Below, piece by piece: positions 27,248 through 38,519 of a DNA stretch of 64,000 bases; position 1 is the first letter of the stretch, and every line of letters begins with the position of its first letter. The position numbers were made by a program, and so were the translations under genes. The notes beneath the pieces were generated by a model, which saw only the letters and a program-made list of their open reading frames with translations, did not search any database and was not told the DNA's origin. Source of the stretch: Neelides folsomi (taxonomy: Eukaryota; Arthropoda; Collembola; Neelipleona; Neelidae); contig JAQGBZ010000110.1 in NCBI GenBank assembly GCA_034687125.1, positions 62,001 through 126,000 of the forward strand, written 5' to 3'.

Positions 27248-30200
27248 TTAAACAAAGAGATAAATGATTGGAAAAATTATTAATGAAGCGATGGAGGATC
27301 TTGTGGAACTTTTCATTCCCGAAGAGGAAGAAACTCTTTCATAACGAACTGTCTCAAGACCATTGTTTTTTGAAGGAAACACGACAACAACATCTTTATA
27401 CGAGACAGCCACTATCCTTATTTCACTACTATTGTTGATAGTTTGGATGTTTTGGACGAGCTTTTCTTGTCCGGGTTTAACTTTTTCTTTATGATTCGTT
27501 TCCACTACACTATTGGTGTTCTCTAACTCATCAATGTCATTTGATTCTTCTTTAACATTTCCACAAGTGTTGATTGGTTTGTAAGGTTTCTTTACTTTTG
27601 GATATTTAACTCGTCCCGTAGCAGTTAAACCATAGTTGATGGCAGAGCAGTAATAATCTTGGTCGTCAAATCTTTGCTTTTCTTGAAATTCTTGACGGAA
27701 TTCGGGAGTCCATTTAACAACTGTATTCAAAGCTTCAGAGTAAAGTTTACCAAACATTGAAGGAGGATCTGTTATGATGGGTTCTTCTGAATTAGGGCTC
27801 CTATAAGAATAAAATCATTTAAGTCATCTGATTATTTTATTAAAATTGCACATATTACTAGATTATTCAGTGTCTTATTGTGTCATGGGTGATGCAAAAT
27901 TTACATTGGTAACATTGGGAAAGCATCCAGGTAATTTTTTCAACTATTCCGAGTATCTAAAAATCTAAAGCAATGGAGAATATTTCAATTGAGTTATATT
28001 GTTAACCTGTTTTGTAGTTAAATTAAATGTTGGATTATTTTTGAATTTCCCATGACACAATAAGACACACATTATTGAATAATCTAGTATTATGATGATG
28101 AGATAATGTGATACACAGCTTCATCTTCCTTTTCACTTTTAAATATACGAATACGAATGAATAAGATGTCTTACGTTGTAATGTTCAATATTCCCAAATC
28201 TTGGAAAAGGTTCTGATATGAAGGTTGACTTGTGCAAAATTCAAGTCTATCTCTTGGATAATACCAAGTGAAAGTCTGGCACATTTCCTCTGTTGTTGAT
28301 TGACCCCCTAATGTCACTTTTCCTCTTCTCCATCTTGTATCATAGACGCATTCTATAAATTACAGAAAAATACAAAAGTTCAAATACATGCTACTGTTAT
28401 CTTTAACCCAGATTATTCTCAAATGAACACATGGTGTATGTAAATATCTTAATTACTCAAATTATTAATAAGTATTGTGTATGAAGTAATTTACCAAATA
28501 TGCATTCAAGAATGCAATAATTAGTGAATTGATATAATCACGCACCTAGTGAGAGTTGGTCTCCGGGAAGAATATGGACTTCTTCTGAAAGAGGACGATT
28601 TTGCTGATATGCGAAATCATAATTGTCGTCATTAAGAATCCAGGGAAGTTCTTCAGTTCCACGAAAATGTCTCAATTTTAAACGGCGTCCTAAATGAACA
28701 TTTTAAATTAATTAGGTATGATTTCTACAGAATTTTTTTAAAGTATTTAATATAATTTGTGTATCGTTTTTGGTTCAAACCTCCCAAATGAGCATGTAAA
28801 AGAACGTTGAACATTTTAATTCCTTCTTTAGGTAATTGACGAGTGCAAGCAGGAGCGCAATGACCAACGCTCATAAAATCAACTGAATTTGGTGGGATTG
28901 TTTGAGAAAGACTAACAACATTTCCGGTTGTTAACATTGCAGCATCATATTTCCTTTTATTTACAAATACAATTAATTTCAAATATCCATTGTTAAATAT
29001 TTGCTAATATACTAAAATAGTTAAATATTACATTATTATAAATAATTAACGAAATAACCTTCTCGTTAAATGCTTAATTGAAATAAATTCCAAAGTTATT
29101 AATCAAAAGAATGTAAACCTCAGCTTATCTGTGTAGAAAACTTCAATCCCAGCTTTGTATTTTACATTTTCCAATAGTTGAGGATTGTCATAATGAATTT
29201 CAAGCATGTAATACAATTGCTCGTCTGGATTTTCACCAACTGGATATCCTACGTGTTGAGGGAACATAAACTTCCGTCCTCCGTTTCCCCATATAAACAA
29301 ATTATTTCTGCAAAAGTCAGTCGGAAGTGTTTGGTTTGCAGGTGGGAGATAACAATAGTTCCCTTTCTCTCCAACGTGTTTTTCAAAGATTGTATTGTTA
29401 AGTGTTGCATTAAGTCCGGGTGGAAGAACTTTTGGAATTGCACATTCATAAACGACAAAATGATGAGTATGGGCAACGGCTGCAGCGTTGTTTAAAATCG
29501 GACCAAACTAGAATTTAAAAACAATGTTGTAGCATGCAAATTCTGTATTTGTCATAATGCGAGTATGTAGTATAATATTATCTTACAGGTAGTTAAATAT
29601 ACAGGGTGTCCATGAGTTAACTGCGTTTTTTTTAAATTTGTAAAAAATTTAAAAAACGCAGTTAACTCGTGGACACCCGATACACACGCATGCTATTAGC
29701 TGTTTCTAATATAAAAAATCGAAATAAAATTCAAAATTATACCCCGATGATATGATGTTTCTTATCATATTGAGGAGCTTTATGAATTGAACACCAATAA
29801 GATGTAAATTCTGCAGGCATCTCCATTTCCATTGCCGCTTCCCAGGATTTGACGTCACTATAAAATATAATATATTTCATGAATTTTGAAACCTTTTAGG
29901 GATGTTCAAGGTAATGGGTGACTTATTTAATTTAGAGAGCATTGTGTTAATACATATGAAGGTTAAACTACAAAAATCATAATCCATTACAAGTACTAAT
30001 TGCTTGCTATTAGTACTTGTATTAAATGTGAAGATTTATAATGCCATTGTATAAAATTGTCAAGTGATTGAATATTGCAAAAGTACTATAGGTATATCAT
30101 GTATTTTTAAAGGAATCATAGTTAATTCATTAAAATCGTTAGTTTACTCTTCAGGTAGAGGCTGTGGCGAAGGATCGAGTAAGTTGACTGAATAAGTTCC

Positions 30201-32696: not shown

Positions 32697-34299
32697 ATGC
32701 AATTCAACATTGAAATCAAAGCGAGAAATATGATCGGTTTTGAGAAGGCCGTAGAGATTGCAAAGAATTTGCTCGGAAATGATGAATCAGATGAGACTCG
32801 ATTCACTTTGAATCAATGCGACACCTTTTACAAGTGTTCGACCGGAAGGTTGAAACTCCGAGAAGAGGGTCAAAAATTTGCCAAGCTTATCGAATATTCT
32901 CGTCCCGATGATGAAGGACCGAAGTTGAGCAAATACAGCATTGCGAAAATCGAAGGACAAGAAAATGTACAAGATTTGAAGCGAGTCTTTGAAAAATCCC
33001 TTGGCACAATTGTCATTGTTGAGAAAAAACGGAATGTCTTTGTGATCAAAGAACAGGGATTAAGCGTCAGAGTTCACCTTGATTCAGTTCTTCATCTTGG
33101 GGATTTTATTGAATTTGAGGTTAGAAATTTATACGCAATACATGTATGAAAAAGATTGGATCAGGGTGTAGCAAATGGACCCAAAACGGGTAGTGGTTAC
33201 CCGAAAAGGGGTAATGCTTACCCGAAAACAGGTAATGGTTACCCGAATTGAGGTAACTGTTACCACAAAACGGGTAATGTTACCACAAACGGGTAACGTT
33301 ACCCGAAGGTAATTTCAAAACGGGTAACGCTCACCCGATGGTTACCCGAACAAAATCCTATTACCCTGGCAAAATATTTGATTACCCGAAAAAACTATAC
33401 AATTTTTGAAATTACTGAAGAATAAAACATGGTATACACTATTCATATACCTATTGAGCTTATGTATATCGCTATAAGATTTATTAATTGAAATTAATTT
33501 TATTGATTTATGAATGGAAAATTTTTTCAGTTATCCTATTTATAATGTAGTTTTATGTCAAATGAAATTTGAAATAAGAAATATTTTTGTATAAATCATT
33601 AGTTAATTTAATTATTATTATACAATAAGATCACAAAATCCAAAATTATTTATTTGATACGTTAATACATACATAGTTAATTGTAAATAGAATTTATTGA
33701 TTATATTTCATTTCATAACTTGAATAAAACTACGTTGTAAATAGGATAACAGTAAATTCCCATTCATAAATCATGTTTTATTATTAGAGAATTATTATTG
33801 GAGAATTAGGACATGACTTGATAGGATAACCAAAGATTATGTTCGGGTAACCTAAGATTTTGTTCAGGTAATCAAATATTTTGTCCGGATAACCTTGGAT
33901 TTTGTTCGGGTAACCATCGGGTAAGCGTTACCCGTTTTGAAATTTTCTTCGGGTAACGTTACCCGTTTTGTGATAACAGTTACCTCATTTCGGGTAACCA
34001 TTACCTGTTTTCGGGTAAGCATTACCCTTTTTCAGGTAACCATTACCCGAATTGTGGTAACCACTACCTGTTTTCGGGTAATGGTTACCCGTTTTGGGTC
34101 CATTTGCTACACCCTGACCAAAAGATTGTATTTTACTTATTTATTTAAAACTAATGAAAAAAACTTATAGGTGATTGTCAATTCCGAAGAGGATTCCTCA
34201 GCTGGTTCTAAAGTGGCGAGGATTTTAATGGAAAAGTTTCACATTGAAGAAAGCGATTTAATAAGTAATGCGTATGCCGATCTCTTACAAAGTCGCTAA
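32697..34299 (+). CDS. CYTH-domain protein, CyaB-like / triphosphate tunnel family (183 aa, 2 exons)
   Basis: Exons are 32697-33119 and 34171-34299, joined in phase 0. The start MQFNIEIKARN gives the N-terminal CYTH signature (IEIKAR, residues 5-10), with Glu6 and Lys8. Further family landmarks are QCDTFYKC, GRLKLREEGQ, LIEYSRPDDEGPKLSKY, RVHLDSVLHLGDFIEFEV, and the end FHIEESDLISNAYADLL. The whole domain is present at the expected size. The family folds as a beta-barrel tunnel that binds tripolyphosphate compounds with metal; members include class IV adenylate cyclases and thiamine triphosphatases. The true substrate of this animal subgroup is unknown to me. Its single intron contains a 961-bp foldback transposon; without it the intron would be 81 bp. 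AATAAA at 34399-34404 may be its poly(A) signal, placing its 3' end opposite that of the JMJD4 gene. Confidence 0.88.
33150..34128. mobile_element. 961-bp foldback transposable element with 9-bp target duplication
   Basis: The element spans 33159-34119, flanked by AAAAGATTG at 33150-33158 and 34120-34128. Its ends are GATCAGGGTGTAGCAAATGG and the complement of GGTCAGGGTGTAGCAAATGG. The inverted repeats run nearly to the centre, including an inner match around GTTATCCTATTTATAA. The outer about 210 nt of each arm is built of alternating CGGGTAA and TTACCCG units, so each arm contains small palindromes of its own. There is no coding capacity. A 9-bp duplication with very long inverted repeats points to Mutator-like or Foldback-type elements, though the superfamily is an inference. 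Confidence 0.88.
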
Positions 34300-34448: not shown

Positions 34449-36256
34449 TCATAATTGAGAAAAAATATAATTTATAATTAAAATATCAAATGTATAGTAA
34501 AAATTTTCATTGTTTTTTAAGCTAATTTCCCTTTTAGTTCTTATTTTAAGTAATAATTTATAAAATTCTGAATAGTTAATTCCATAATTGGCTTTGAGTA
34601 TAAGTTGGCACTGGGAATGAAATTCGATGGCGTTTTTCATTTCTGAGATTTCCTCCTTGACGTCTTCAAGTGCCCTTTGAAGGGATTTCCAAACATAGAT
34701 GAGATTTGCAGCATTGATCCAATTGTGGTTTATTGAAATCGTGTCCTCTAAATTCCACACCACATGGTACCATCCAGATGGGACAAAGATGGCTTCTCCT
34801 GCCTCTTGAATAACCTCGTAGTAATCGTAATTAATTCTTCCAGGATCCTCATAATCATAAATAAGTCTTTTCTTCTTGGAATCGAAAAACCTTCTGAGAG
34901 AATTTGGATGGTAAAGTCGCCATTTTTTTCTTCCAATTACATTTGCCGACCAACTAAAAGAACCATACACATCCGCATGGAAAGAACTCCTGTTAAAAAT
35001 TCAAGATATAGATTTTTAAGTAACATTGTATAATTTATGCTAATGAAATGAAATTATATTAATCGCTACTGTGAATAATTTAAATACCATAAATGCATGA
35101 GCTAATTAAAGTCAATTTATTTGCACATACCAGGATCCTTTGGGGCCAAGGTATGCGAAACGATAATCATCATCGTCTTCTTCACAAACTTCATTTAGCC
35201 AGTCATCAGAAAAGAAAATTGGCGTCTCATATGGGCAATAAACGTTTTTACTTGACTTTTTAATGTGCCAATCCTGCAGATTTATAAAACATGTTATGTG
35301 TTAAAATGTATTTATGATTATATAGTTTATCTTCGTCCTATCTTAAAGAATGAGGTTTAACCTCCACAAATATTCAAACAAATTGTTTATAATTTCGCCG
35401 ACAATACTAACATTTACATAAAATCAATTATAAATATTATCATTTTAAATTGCTTAAAGCAATAAAAGCAGAATTAACGATAAGTCAGCAATGTATTTAT
35501 TTATTAACAGAAGATACATAAATCATAAATAAATAATAGTCCAAGTTTTAAAAAAATCATTGAAAATATAATCTTATCTCGTTGCGTTAAAACTATCTTT
35601 TATAAATTTTTGAGTTTACGAATGTTTGACCTTTAGATAAAGACATGGCTCCGTTGAAGGATAACCTTCGTTCTTGTAATCTTTCCAATAGCGAATGTAT
35701 TCTTCAACTGTCATTTCATGGGTTGATCCATTTCCATATTCAGCATTCTCCAATACTGATTGGCAGGTTGTTGCATTAATTTTCGATTCTGCTTTAAATT
35801 GGAAATTAAATCATACAATAGGTAGTCTTTATATTGGAACTTTAAAGATAAATTACATAACATTTACAAGAATTTACATTATAACAAGGTTAATAGGAAT
35901 AACAAAAAGAAATTATGGTATTTAGATTGTTTAGAATACTAATAAGTTTACTTACAAAATAAATTCAAAATTTCTTGGAAGTTAATTTCCTCTTGGTCGA
36001 CCCAATCTCTCCTAGAATTCCAATTATCCGTAATATTCTTTTCAAATAGGCAAGGTCGGTTCATTAATAAAAATCCATTATAAAATTCATCATAGGATAT
36101 CGATGTGTCAAGGATAGGAAAATCTTCTAATTTCTCCATATCTAAATCTTCATTAGATTCTAAAGAACTAAAGAGGTTCACTTTACTGAAGAGTTTACTT
36201 TGACTTTTTAACAATCTTTCTAATAATTGTTCTGTAATCTGACTAGATTTGTTCAT
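34449..36256 (-). CDS. JMJD4: JmjC-domain 2-oxoglutarate oxygenase, JMJD4 homologue (381 aa, 4 exons)
   Basis: Exons in transcript order: 35956-36256, 35631-35791, 35131-35273 and 34449-34989. The JmjC domain shows FAYLGPKGSW (about 193-202), then the iron ligands His206 and Asp208 (HADVYGSFSWSANVIGRKKW) and His277 (FVPSGWYHVVWNLEDTISINHNW). These blocks are those of JMJD4 rather than other JmjC proteins. The N-terminal part has the family's YDEFYNGFLLMNRPCLF and TVEEYIRYWKDY segments. Human JMJD4 is reported to hydroxylate a lysine of translation release factor eRF1; the same role here is inferred from orthology. At the first junction I chose the acceptor AAAG|CAGAATC because the later CAG site would create an in-frame stop. 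It starts head-to-head with the CNPase-like gene, 503 bp away. Confidence 0.92.
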
Positions 36257-36759: not shown

Positions 36760-38519
36760 ATGGCTAATGCAAAAACGAGAGGACCAAAAGTAAGTACAAT
36801 TCCAACAACTGAAATTCCAAAAATGAGTAATAAAAAGTCTTCTACAACATCTGCTGTCTCTCAAGATTCAAATAGTAATCCTAAGAAAGGAAAAACAAAG
36901 AATTCTTCAACATCGACTGATTCGACTGCCCAAGATGTTACAAAAGTCAATATTTTAAAAGTCAAAAAACAAAAGGATCAGAATTCATCATCGACAACGA
37001 ATGTCGTCCAAAATAAATGTGCTAATCTACCGAAAGGGAAAACTCAAAAAACTCAAAATTCTCCTTCGACAACGACTGTCTCGGTTCCGAAAGTAAATGG
37101 TGCTAATGATAATCCGACCAAGAAAAAACCCAAGTCAGTTGAAAATTCACCTTCGACGTCGACTACGATGACAAAAAGTAAAGGCAATCAGAATAACTCA
37201 ATGAAAATTAAAACTGTCACTGATTCTCCAAAGAACTCTGCTTCTGATTTTATTAAACCAAAGAATTGTGCGGCTAATTGGCTGAAAGAGAAAGCACAAT
37301 CCGCTGAGAATTCTCCTTCAACTTCGACTAATCAAAGTATTCAATGTCGATGATTTCAAATTCAATTATAAATAAATATTATTTAAATATAATAATCTCA
37401 TTTTTAAATAATACTCAAGGTTAAATAATGTTAATAATTATGGTCATTAATGAGTTTATGTAATAGGTAAGAGAAAATCTGAAAAGTCTGAGAGTACTGA
37501 TGGGAGCAATGATCTTGTCAGCAAATTTCAAGCAATTTCGCTCAGTCCCAATGTTAAAGAGGTAAAACACTTATTTAGTATTCGCTTGAATAATTTTATT
37601 CGCAAATTCTGAATGTGATAAAAAAATTGACATGATTAAATTAAATGTAGGAGCTGCCTTGTAACGTATTATACTATGGGTGGTTCTTCAGTGAAGAATC
37701 ATCAATCTCGCTAAAAGAACTTTCTTATATATACTTGAGAGAATGCTATTGTGTAATTCCGCAATTTAGAAAATTCCTCAATGAATTATGTACAAAAGAG
37801 GAAATTAATGGTAAGAGATAAGAGAGCGGAAATGTTTACAAAATCTTTGATTAGAGAATTTTAAATTCTTAAACATTTCAATCACATTTCATTAAGCAAA
37901 AGTTATATAAGTTTTTTTATATTATCTAGATCCATTTGAATATTATAAAACAACTGTCCGGACCAAAACGTTAAAATATCACGTTACAGCCAAATTTTGT
38001 GGTCGGGAACTAATTCTACCATATCAAAATGATGTAAATAACAATATTGGAAAGGCATTTCGGATTGAAATGATCGGATTTTTCCTAACTCCAACATCAT
38101 TTGGAATTCGAGTTAAATTAACCAAAGCGGTTGAACATCTTTTTGATCAAGACAGAAAGGAAAGTAAAAAGAAATCAAAATGTCGTCCTAGTGGGATTCC
38201 TAGATTGAGTAAAGGAGATTCCTTTCCATGCAGTTTTCCAGGAATTGAAATGATTCCTCAACTTGATGATTTAAATCCGCCGTCGTCCAGAGCTCATGTC
38301 ACAATTGGAGTGAGTCCTAGAACGAAAGCAATTCAAGCCGGTTTGGATCTTTTGGATATTTGTGATTTGGAATTAAGACAATCGTCTGTTCATACACAAG
38401 ATTACAGATTGCCGTCACTAGGAGCTTTAGTTCGCCAATTTGGAAGATCTGGAGATGCATTTGTAATTTATCCTACACATCTAATTGCCGCTGAAGGAAT
38501 TTTTAAGCCATTTATTTAA
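36760..38519 (+). CDS. CNPase-like 2',3'-cyclic nucleotide 3'-phosphodiesterase with basic repeat N-terminus (473 aa, 4 exons)
   Basis: Exons are 36760-37336, 37467-37561, 37651-37810 and 37930-38519, in frame throughout. Residues 1 to about 192 are Lys/Ser/Thr-rich, with degenerate repeats of 26-29 residues each ending in a form of NSPSTST. From about 225 the protein follows vertebrate CNPase: VLYYGWFFSEESS, then the first catalytic HVT (295-297, in YHVTAKFC), FFLTPTSFGIRVKL, the second HVT (400-402, in SRAHVTIGVS) and GLDLLDI. The two HxT motifs mark the 2H phosphoesterase fold, which hydrolyses 2',3'-cyclic phosphates to 2'-phosphates. The P-loop kinase-like half that precedes this domain in vertebrate CNPase is not present in these exons. 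A basic insertion of about 30 residues precedes the second HVT, and the C-terminus IFKPFI lacks a CaaX prenylation box. The first donor (CAAA|GTATTC) is weak, and a site 11 bases downstream would also keep the frame. Confidence 0.8.
36880..37336 (+). repeat. Degenerate 26-29-residue tandem repeats in the CNPase-like N-terminus
   Basis: Reading the protein, block ends fall at NSSTST, NSSSTT, NSPSTTT, NSPSTST, SPKNSAS and NSPSTST, each preceded by a Lys-rich stretch (such as KGKTQKTQ or KKKPKSVE). Spacing is 26-29 residues. At DNA level, forms of AATTCTCCTTCGACAACGAC recur. The pattern suggests expansion by tandem duplication followed by drift, giving a disordered, positively charged tail. Confidence 0.7.

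Follow-up and report, generated by a model that had tools for sequence, protein, structure and literature searches.

The window analysed here, a stretch of 64,000 nucleotides from Neelides folsomi, contains a gene for a CYTH domain protein with a foldback element in one of its introns. The exons at 32697 to 33119 and 34171 to 34299 join in phase 0 to give a 183-aa protein, and the CYTH score is 29.4 bits for the spliced protein versus 20.5 bits for the frame of the first exon (Pfam cut-off, 23.2). Frames near the insertion contain CNPase (37911 to 38519, plus strand), JmjC/cupin-8 (34449 to 35000, minus strand), and copper type II monooxygenase (29103 to 29507, minus strand) domains. The features of the locus are as follows.

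32697-33119, plus strand: host exon, N-terminal part of the CYTH domain
33120-34170, plus strand: host intron, phase 0, 1051 bp
33150-33158, no strand: left target site duplication AAAAGATTG, identical to 34120-34128
33159-34119, no strand: foldback element, 961 bp, whole-element fold z of -29.6
33159-33178, plus strand: left tip GATCAGGGTGTAGCAAATGG, 1 mismatch to the right tip over 20 bp
33187-33337, plus strand: left dyad array, 7 dyads, GGGTAA-N3/N2-TTACCC and near forms
33364-33576, plus strand: left inner arm, AT-rich, diverged from the right inner arm
33577-33703, no strand: centre, 127 bp left over outside the arm alignment
33704-33892, minus strand: right inner arm, from the arm alignment
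33918-34091, minus strand: right dyad array, 8 dyads versus 7 on the left
34100-34119, minus strand: right tip GGTCAGGGTGTAGCAAATGG, inverted match to the left tip
34120-34128, no strand: right target site duplication AAAAGATTG, identical to 33150-33158
34171-34299, plus strand: last host exon with stop codon, spliced protein of 183 aa

The element measures exactly 961 bp and lies between two identical 9-bp copies of AAAAGATTG, so that the precise duplication described earlier from this DNA is confirmed. The limits and the overall anatomy given in that preliminary description also hold, since the tips match and the palindrome continues up to the 127-bp centre. Removal of the element and one copy of the duplication from the 1051-bp intron leaves 81 bp, the size that had been calculated for the empty intron. 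The tips are inverted repeats in which 33 of the 34 outer bases agree (GATC on the left versus GGTC on the right). In the outer arms, aligned in a register (left 21 versus right 62) that was set by hand from an earlier alignment and that allows unequal numbers of units, 152 matches, 13 mismatches, and 3 gap events were counted over 186 columns, whereas the inner arms had 147 matches, 34 mismatches, and 20 gap events over 221 columns. The statement that the arms are little diverged is therefore true of the outer arms and fails for the inner ones.

The centres of the seven dyads in the left array are located 37, 58, 79, 100, 120.5, 139.5, and 171 bp from the tip. The whole element contains 15 dyads that resemble GGGTAA-N2/3-TTACCC with no more than 3 mismatches, whereas 50 mononucleotide shuffles yielded 1.16 on average and never more than 4. 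As had been proposed, the arms are able to fold on themselves as well as on each other: the left arm alone (237 nt) gave a single-strand fold z of -5.2, equalled by none of 200 shuffles, and the whole element a z of -29.6, equalled by none of 20. Long inverted repeats with internal tandem units and little or nothing between them constitute the anatomy of a foldback element, and the data support the conclusion that this is a real and complete transposable element of that type. The longest listed stop-to-stop frame that overlaps it is 81 aa, and the element is seemingly non-autonomous.

Related elements were found elsewhere in the genome, which was searched as 75.1 Mb in 840 contigs, the window included. 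The left arm matched 34 stretches, three of which belong to the element itself. A search with the 20-bp tip (up to 3 mismatches) returned 28 places, including two in the element itself, versus none for the reversed control; a looser tip pattern gave 218 places versus 107 for its control, and perfect CGGGTAA-N0-6-TTACCCG palindromes occurred at 27 places genome-wide versus 3 for the reversed control. Within the collected loci, 37 tips with up to 4 mismatches were recognized; 18 of them form nine pairs, and the other 19, single or mispaired, were left out of the duplication scoring. The nine two-ended copies are 195 to 1319 bp long. Seven are flanked by exact 9-bp duplications, one by a duplication with 8 of 9 bases identical, and one (C449; 6 of 9 bases) by none. 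The seven exact duplications (AAAAGATTG, CAACACAAA, CAAAAGTTG, AACTTCATA, ACATTAATG, GAATTTATG, and GGTTAAATG) differ from one another and come from seven places on seven contigs. Several copies at unrelated sites, with target duplications of their own, are thus present, as in a foldback transposon, and the two expectations formulated from the single locus, i.e., that further copies exist and that these have 9-bp duplications, were both borne out.

A candidate copy on C48 (16097/20679) was not included among the pairs: its opposed tips are 4.6 kb apart, without a duplication, and a 716-aa open frame lies between them. In IMG/VR, the tip pattern matched 16 stretches, and as none of these had an opposed second tip, the matches were taken as chance; in one stretch (L108), the second tip pointed the same way as the first, and a single dyad was far off. 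A distant relative is nested in C243 (L069, C243:32223-35495, positions 2171 to 2469). It has the left tip GGTTGGGGTC, 20-bp units with GGTAT/ATACC half-sites, and the duplication GGAAAAGTC, which was read directly, and its host is a decayed MULE element with a duplication of its own. Family arms (in C540, the centre) are located within ~400 bp of contig ends at the starts of C300, C391, C577, C497, and C540 and at the ends of C609 and C115. The assembly thus seems to break in foldback DNA, and the copy number is probably underestimated. A literature search at the level of titles and abstract openings matched no known family to this one. We regard the family, which was not recognized in the literature searched, as a new family within an established type of transposon.

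The insertion had been considered fairly recent, and the perfect target duplication fits a young insertion. Despite this duplication, a recent date is poorly supported in view of the identities of the nearest other arm stretches of at least 88 bp (85% to 89%), of the closest stretch of the centre elsewhere (86% over 241 bp), and of the wide difference between the inner arms. The 3 gap events in the outer arms versus 20 in the inner arms suggest that the outer arms are constrained or homogenized, which makes the divergence between arms a poor clock for the insertion. At C357:14482-14935 and C217:1965-2693, which represent a duplicated or allelic site, the two contigs are 96% identical in the DNA flanking one insertion and 97% identical in an inner piece, but 83% to 85% identical in the arms; ~275 bp of this site are present only in C217. 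Here the arms have changed more than their surroundings, so arms can outpace flanks, and the clock would again be spoiled.

The order of dyads was examined in 20 arms chosen by hand from the collected loci (the right slice of C51 runs into the opposite arm). The unit is a dyad, GGGTAA-N3-TTACCC or its variant with N2 at the centre, and the spacers are short and A or T rich. The centre of the first dyad is 36 to 37.5 bp from the tip in 18 of the 20 arms, the second dyad follows exactly 21.0 bp further in 16, and 11 arms contain a 31.5-bp step that leads from a 2-nt-centred dyad to a 3-nt-centred one; since the arms share ancestry, these counts do not represent independent events. In arms that have all parts, the outermost dyads are 3-nt-centred and 21 bp apart; one to three 2-nt-centred dyads follow at intervals of ~19 bp, and a lone dyad lies innermost. 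Subfamilies with different tips (C110, C326, C130 50409-50787, and C449) have the same order with a variable number of units, and the arms of C106, C124, C217, C357, and C130 40807-41744 depart from it. DNA makes a turn in ~10.5 bp, so that 21 bp corresponds to two turns and 31.5 bp to three. The 19-bp step is a non-integer number of helical turns, which argues against a simple one-face model for the 2-nt-centred part.

The half-sites themselves vary in a symmetric manner. Among 117 different dyads, each sequence being taken once, the fourth base of the two half-sites was T/T in 56, C/C in 25, T/C or C/T in 19, and a combination involving A or G in 17. The change from GGGTAA to GGGCAA occurs in both halves together (p of 2e-10 for joint change, a value that ignores shared descent), and no significant joint change was detected at the other five half-site positions of the same 117 dyads. 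In a scan allowing two other mismatches, the consensus base was present in both halves in 69 of 91 dyads for base 2, 72 of 95 for base 3, 75 of 81 for base 5, and 67 of 89 for base 6.

Tentatively, the dimer sites of the arms may be viewed as a lattice in phase with the helix, in which two site classes always come in the same order: 3-nt-centred sites at 21 bp, 2-nt-centred sites at ~19 bp, and finally a lone site three turns inward. Subfamilies whose half-sites go symmetrically from GGGTAA to GGGCAA would retain this grammar, which would mean that the transposase and its array have changed together, and foldback arms could then be selected platforms for multi-site synapsis rather than by-products of repeat growth. 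A role of the Foldback and Phantom tandem repeats as binding sites is described in the literature as untested (PMC3688188). The dyads could instead act as DNA or RNA hairpins, such as cruciforms or an intron hairpin, and not as protein sites, an explanation that concerns the arms only, leaves the element a transposon, and overlaps with the other readings. The folding of the arms on themselves and on each other agrees with it, as does the symmetry preserved by joint change at one half-site position. Hairpins, however, need neither a fixed core nor a fixed spacing, yet half-site bases 2, 3, 5, and 6 are largely consensus in both halves and many of the dyad steps are 21.0 bp, and we therefore find a role as hairpins doubtful.

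Candidates for the transposase were sought among the MULE genes, for which the genome gave 18 domain matches. In C423 (L089), FLYWCH and MULE domains occur together in an open frame of 508 aa, and the element has ~170-bp repeats that are 98% identical, 15-bp units, and the exact 9-bp duplication TAAAATTAC. The decayed MULE element of C243 has 14-bp units and the 9-bp duplication ATAAATTAC, and that of C485 has the 9-bp duplication GTTTTAAAC and repeats without tandem units. These are the three out of six MULE-bearing elements checked for ends that had an exact 9-bp duplication near their repeats, with tandem units in two of the three; no duplication was found at C263, C16, and C284, and as ~1000 position pairs were tried per element, the single finds are not beyond doubt. 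Of five MULE elements whose arms were passed through Tandem Repeats Finder, four (C423, C243, C16, and C263 [left only]) had tandem units in one arm or both, and C485 had none. MULEs of this genome thus seem to make 9-bp duplications and to tend toward composite arms.

No MULE gene was found between arms of the family, and 16 loci around MULE matches (loci of up to 3.4 kb, with ~1.5 kb on each side; the matches on C681, C2, and C38 were left out) contained no family tips and a single lone dyad. The decayed MULE element of C243 was the best candidate: in comparison with the family, its left end was somewhat more similar than expected by chance (z of 3.7) and its right end was not (z of 0.8), the best single scores being reached by 31 and 66 of 300 shuffles, and seven other MULE element ends had z values of -1.5 to 1.8. 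C485 contains, ~1.4 kb from one of the family's right tips, a MULE (460-aa frame) that was considered as an autonomous partner. It was rejected and is read as a separate element, since inverted repeats and a 9-bp duplication of its own surround it. A 214-aa frame beside a left arm in C339 was likewise rejected as a gene of the element: a relative in C534 shares the DNA (67% identity) to ~11 bp from the end of the arm, and an arm at the C534 place is missing from both arm searches. From these sequences, C339 is read as a putative lone arm beside an unrelated gene family. The frame (C339:30507-31148, minus strand) and its matches on C563, C534, C115, C351, and C557 are open over 214 to 325 aa in five of the six places and broken in C557; no Pfam match at an E value of 0.1 or better was obtained for this frame family, which represents host genes or another mobile element.

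The duplications of the family agree with those of the Phantom group (8 to 10 bp, mostly 9 bp), although a 9-bp duplication is common to MULE and Merlin elements and is not decisive for MULE. A Mutator-like (MULE/Phantom) transposase is likely to move the family, and the assignment goes no further than likely because Merlin transposases are also present in the genome and GG tips and duplications of 8 to 9 bp are shared. It is unlikely, in our estimation, that the same foldback transposon is mobilized by a Merlin (IS1016-like) transposase. The DDE_Tnp_IS1595 domain had 18 genome matches, of which 14 are uninterrupted by stops, and one Merlin match on C440 is 4 to 5 kb from family arms, the nearest tip being 4.9 kb away among the 100 of 218 tip places listed. 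Merlin tips start with GG and the duplications are 8 or 9 bp (PMC8101967), and the family has both a GG tip and a duplication in this range. On the other hand, Merlin inverted repeats are 24 to 462 bp long, and the portion of that paper available to us does not mention composite dyad arms (PMC8101967). The seven exact duplications of the family are, moreover, all 9 bp, and some MULE elements of this genome show 9-bp duplications and tandem units in their arms.

P elements generate 8-bp duplications and Galileo 7-bp duplications, the latter differing from the 9 bp of the present family. A Galileo-like foldback from the P superfamily, or one from some superfamily outside those considered, is hence less probable still, since the exact duplications are 9 bp and not 7 to 8 bp, even though foldback arms are known to arise in several superfamilies (PMC3169594 and PMC3688188). 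Finally, the possibility that the palindrome grew in place or arose in the assembly, for which the several contigs ending in or near family DNA might speak, can practically be dismissed, as exact, locus-specific duplications are present at seven places on seven contigs and the intron reads correctly once the insert is removed.

The preferred reading, a foldback transposon moved by a MULE transposase, can be compared with described systems. Foldback (FB) of Drosophila melanogaster has long tandem-repeat arms, 9-bp duplications, and 31-bp units. The present family is like FB in its long tandem-repeat arms and 9-bp duplications and unlike it in the length and sequence of the unit, the two being set apart by description only. 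The published systems that follow are compared on the basis of excerpts of the respective papers. Tm1, a Mutator/foldback family of root-knot nematodes, resembles the present family in that (i) its inverted repeats are composite, with short units in variable numbers that differ between the ends; (ii) short, MITE-like copies form the largest class; and (iii) its duplications are 8 to 10 bp, mostly 9 bp, without a consensus (PMC3169594). One Tm1 copy has a FLYWCH and MULE transposase of the Phantom type (PMC3169594), whereas no transposase-bearing copy was found in the present family. The Tm1 units measure ~14 bp, without being presented as dyads in the excerpt (PMC3169594), and most Tm1 elements have unlike 7-bp motifs at their two ends, whereas the tips of the present family are alike. 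In a comparison by eye with the published Tm1 motifs (PMC3169594), the family showed neither Motif C units nor asymmetric A1/A2 tips; both of its tips are GGTCAGGGTGTAG-like and its unit is the GGGTAA dyad.

Muta1 of Aedes aegypti has 145-bp repeats with a terminal motif and nine copies of a 12-bp subterminal repeat separated by 3- to 4-bp spacers, 8- to 9-bp duplications, and more than 300 putative non-autonomous derivatives with varying unit numbers, and it excises and reinserts in yeast (PMC5225508). It differs in its 12-bp units, compared with dyads of ~16 to 17 bp placed at 19 and 21 bp here, and in arms that are short relative to the 3198-bp element (PMC5225508). Galileo of Drosophila has foldback-like arms with several sites for its THAP domain transposase, as detected by footprinting and gel shift, and is thus a precedent, from another superfamily, for several transposase sites in foldback arms; Galileo belongs to the P superfamily, and its sites are widely separated, at ~70, 561 to 577, and 701 to 718 bp from the end (PMC3688188). 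Further relatives in kind are Tetris of Drosophila (PMC4079207) and MULEs of an arthropod survey (PMC13359780). Against this background, the element is ordinary in kind, and its arms are unusually regular.

Altogether, we consider it probable that the element is a non-autonomous foldback DNA transposon that was inserted into an 81-bp intron with a 9-bp duplication and was moved in trans, most likely by a MULE (Phantom-type FLYWCH) transposase, with arms that are arrays of dimer sites. Sequence comparison establishes the insertion with its duplication, the multiple copies, the dyad grammar, and the symmetric half-site change. A DDE transposase supplied in trans, most likely the MULE enzyme, would cut at the GGTCAGGGTG tips. 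The arms would present arrays of two-fold symmetric sites, GG(T/C)AA-N2/3-TT(A/G)CC, on which transposase or host-factor dimers may line up, with the outer sites two helical turns apart, and thereby pair both ends, as suggested by the dyad symmetry, the spacing, and the symmetric half-site switch. Slippage or unequal exchange would add and remove units, so that the arms become longer and shorter and the foldback shape is kept. The element would be spliced out with the intron of the CYTH gene, and the transcript would form a long hairpin.

For the host gene, one insertion has taken the intron from 81 bp to 1051 bp, with a long hairpin possible and the reading frame kept open. For the family, the observations address the question of why foldback elements retain long repetitive arms, and the regular dyad array together with the joint half-site change makes the multi-site idea for foldback ends directly testable by footprinting.
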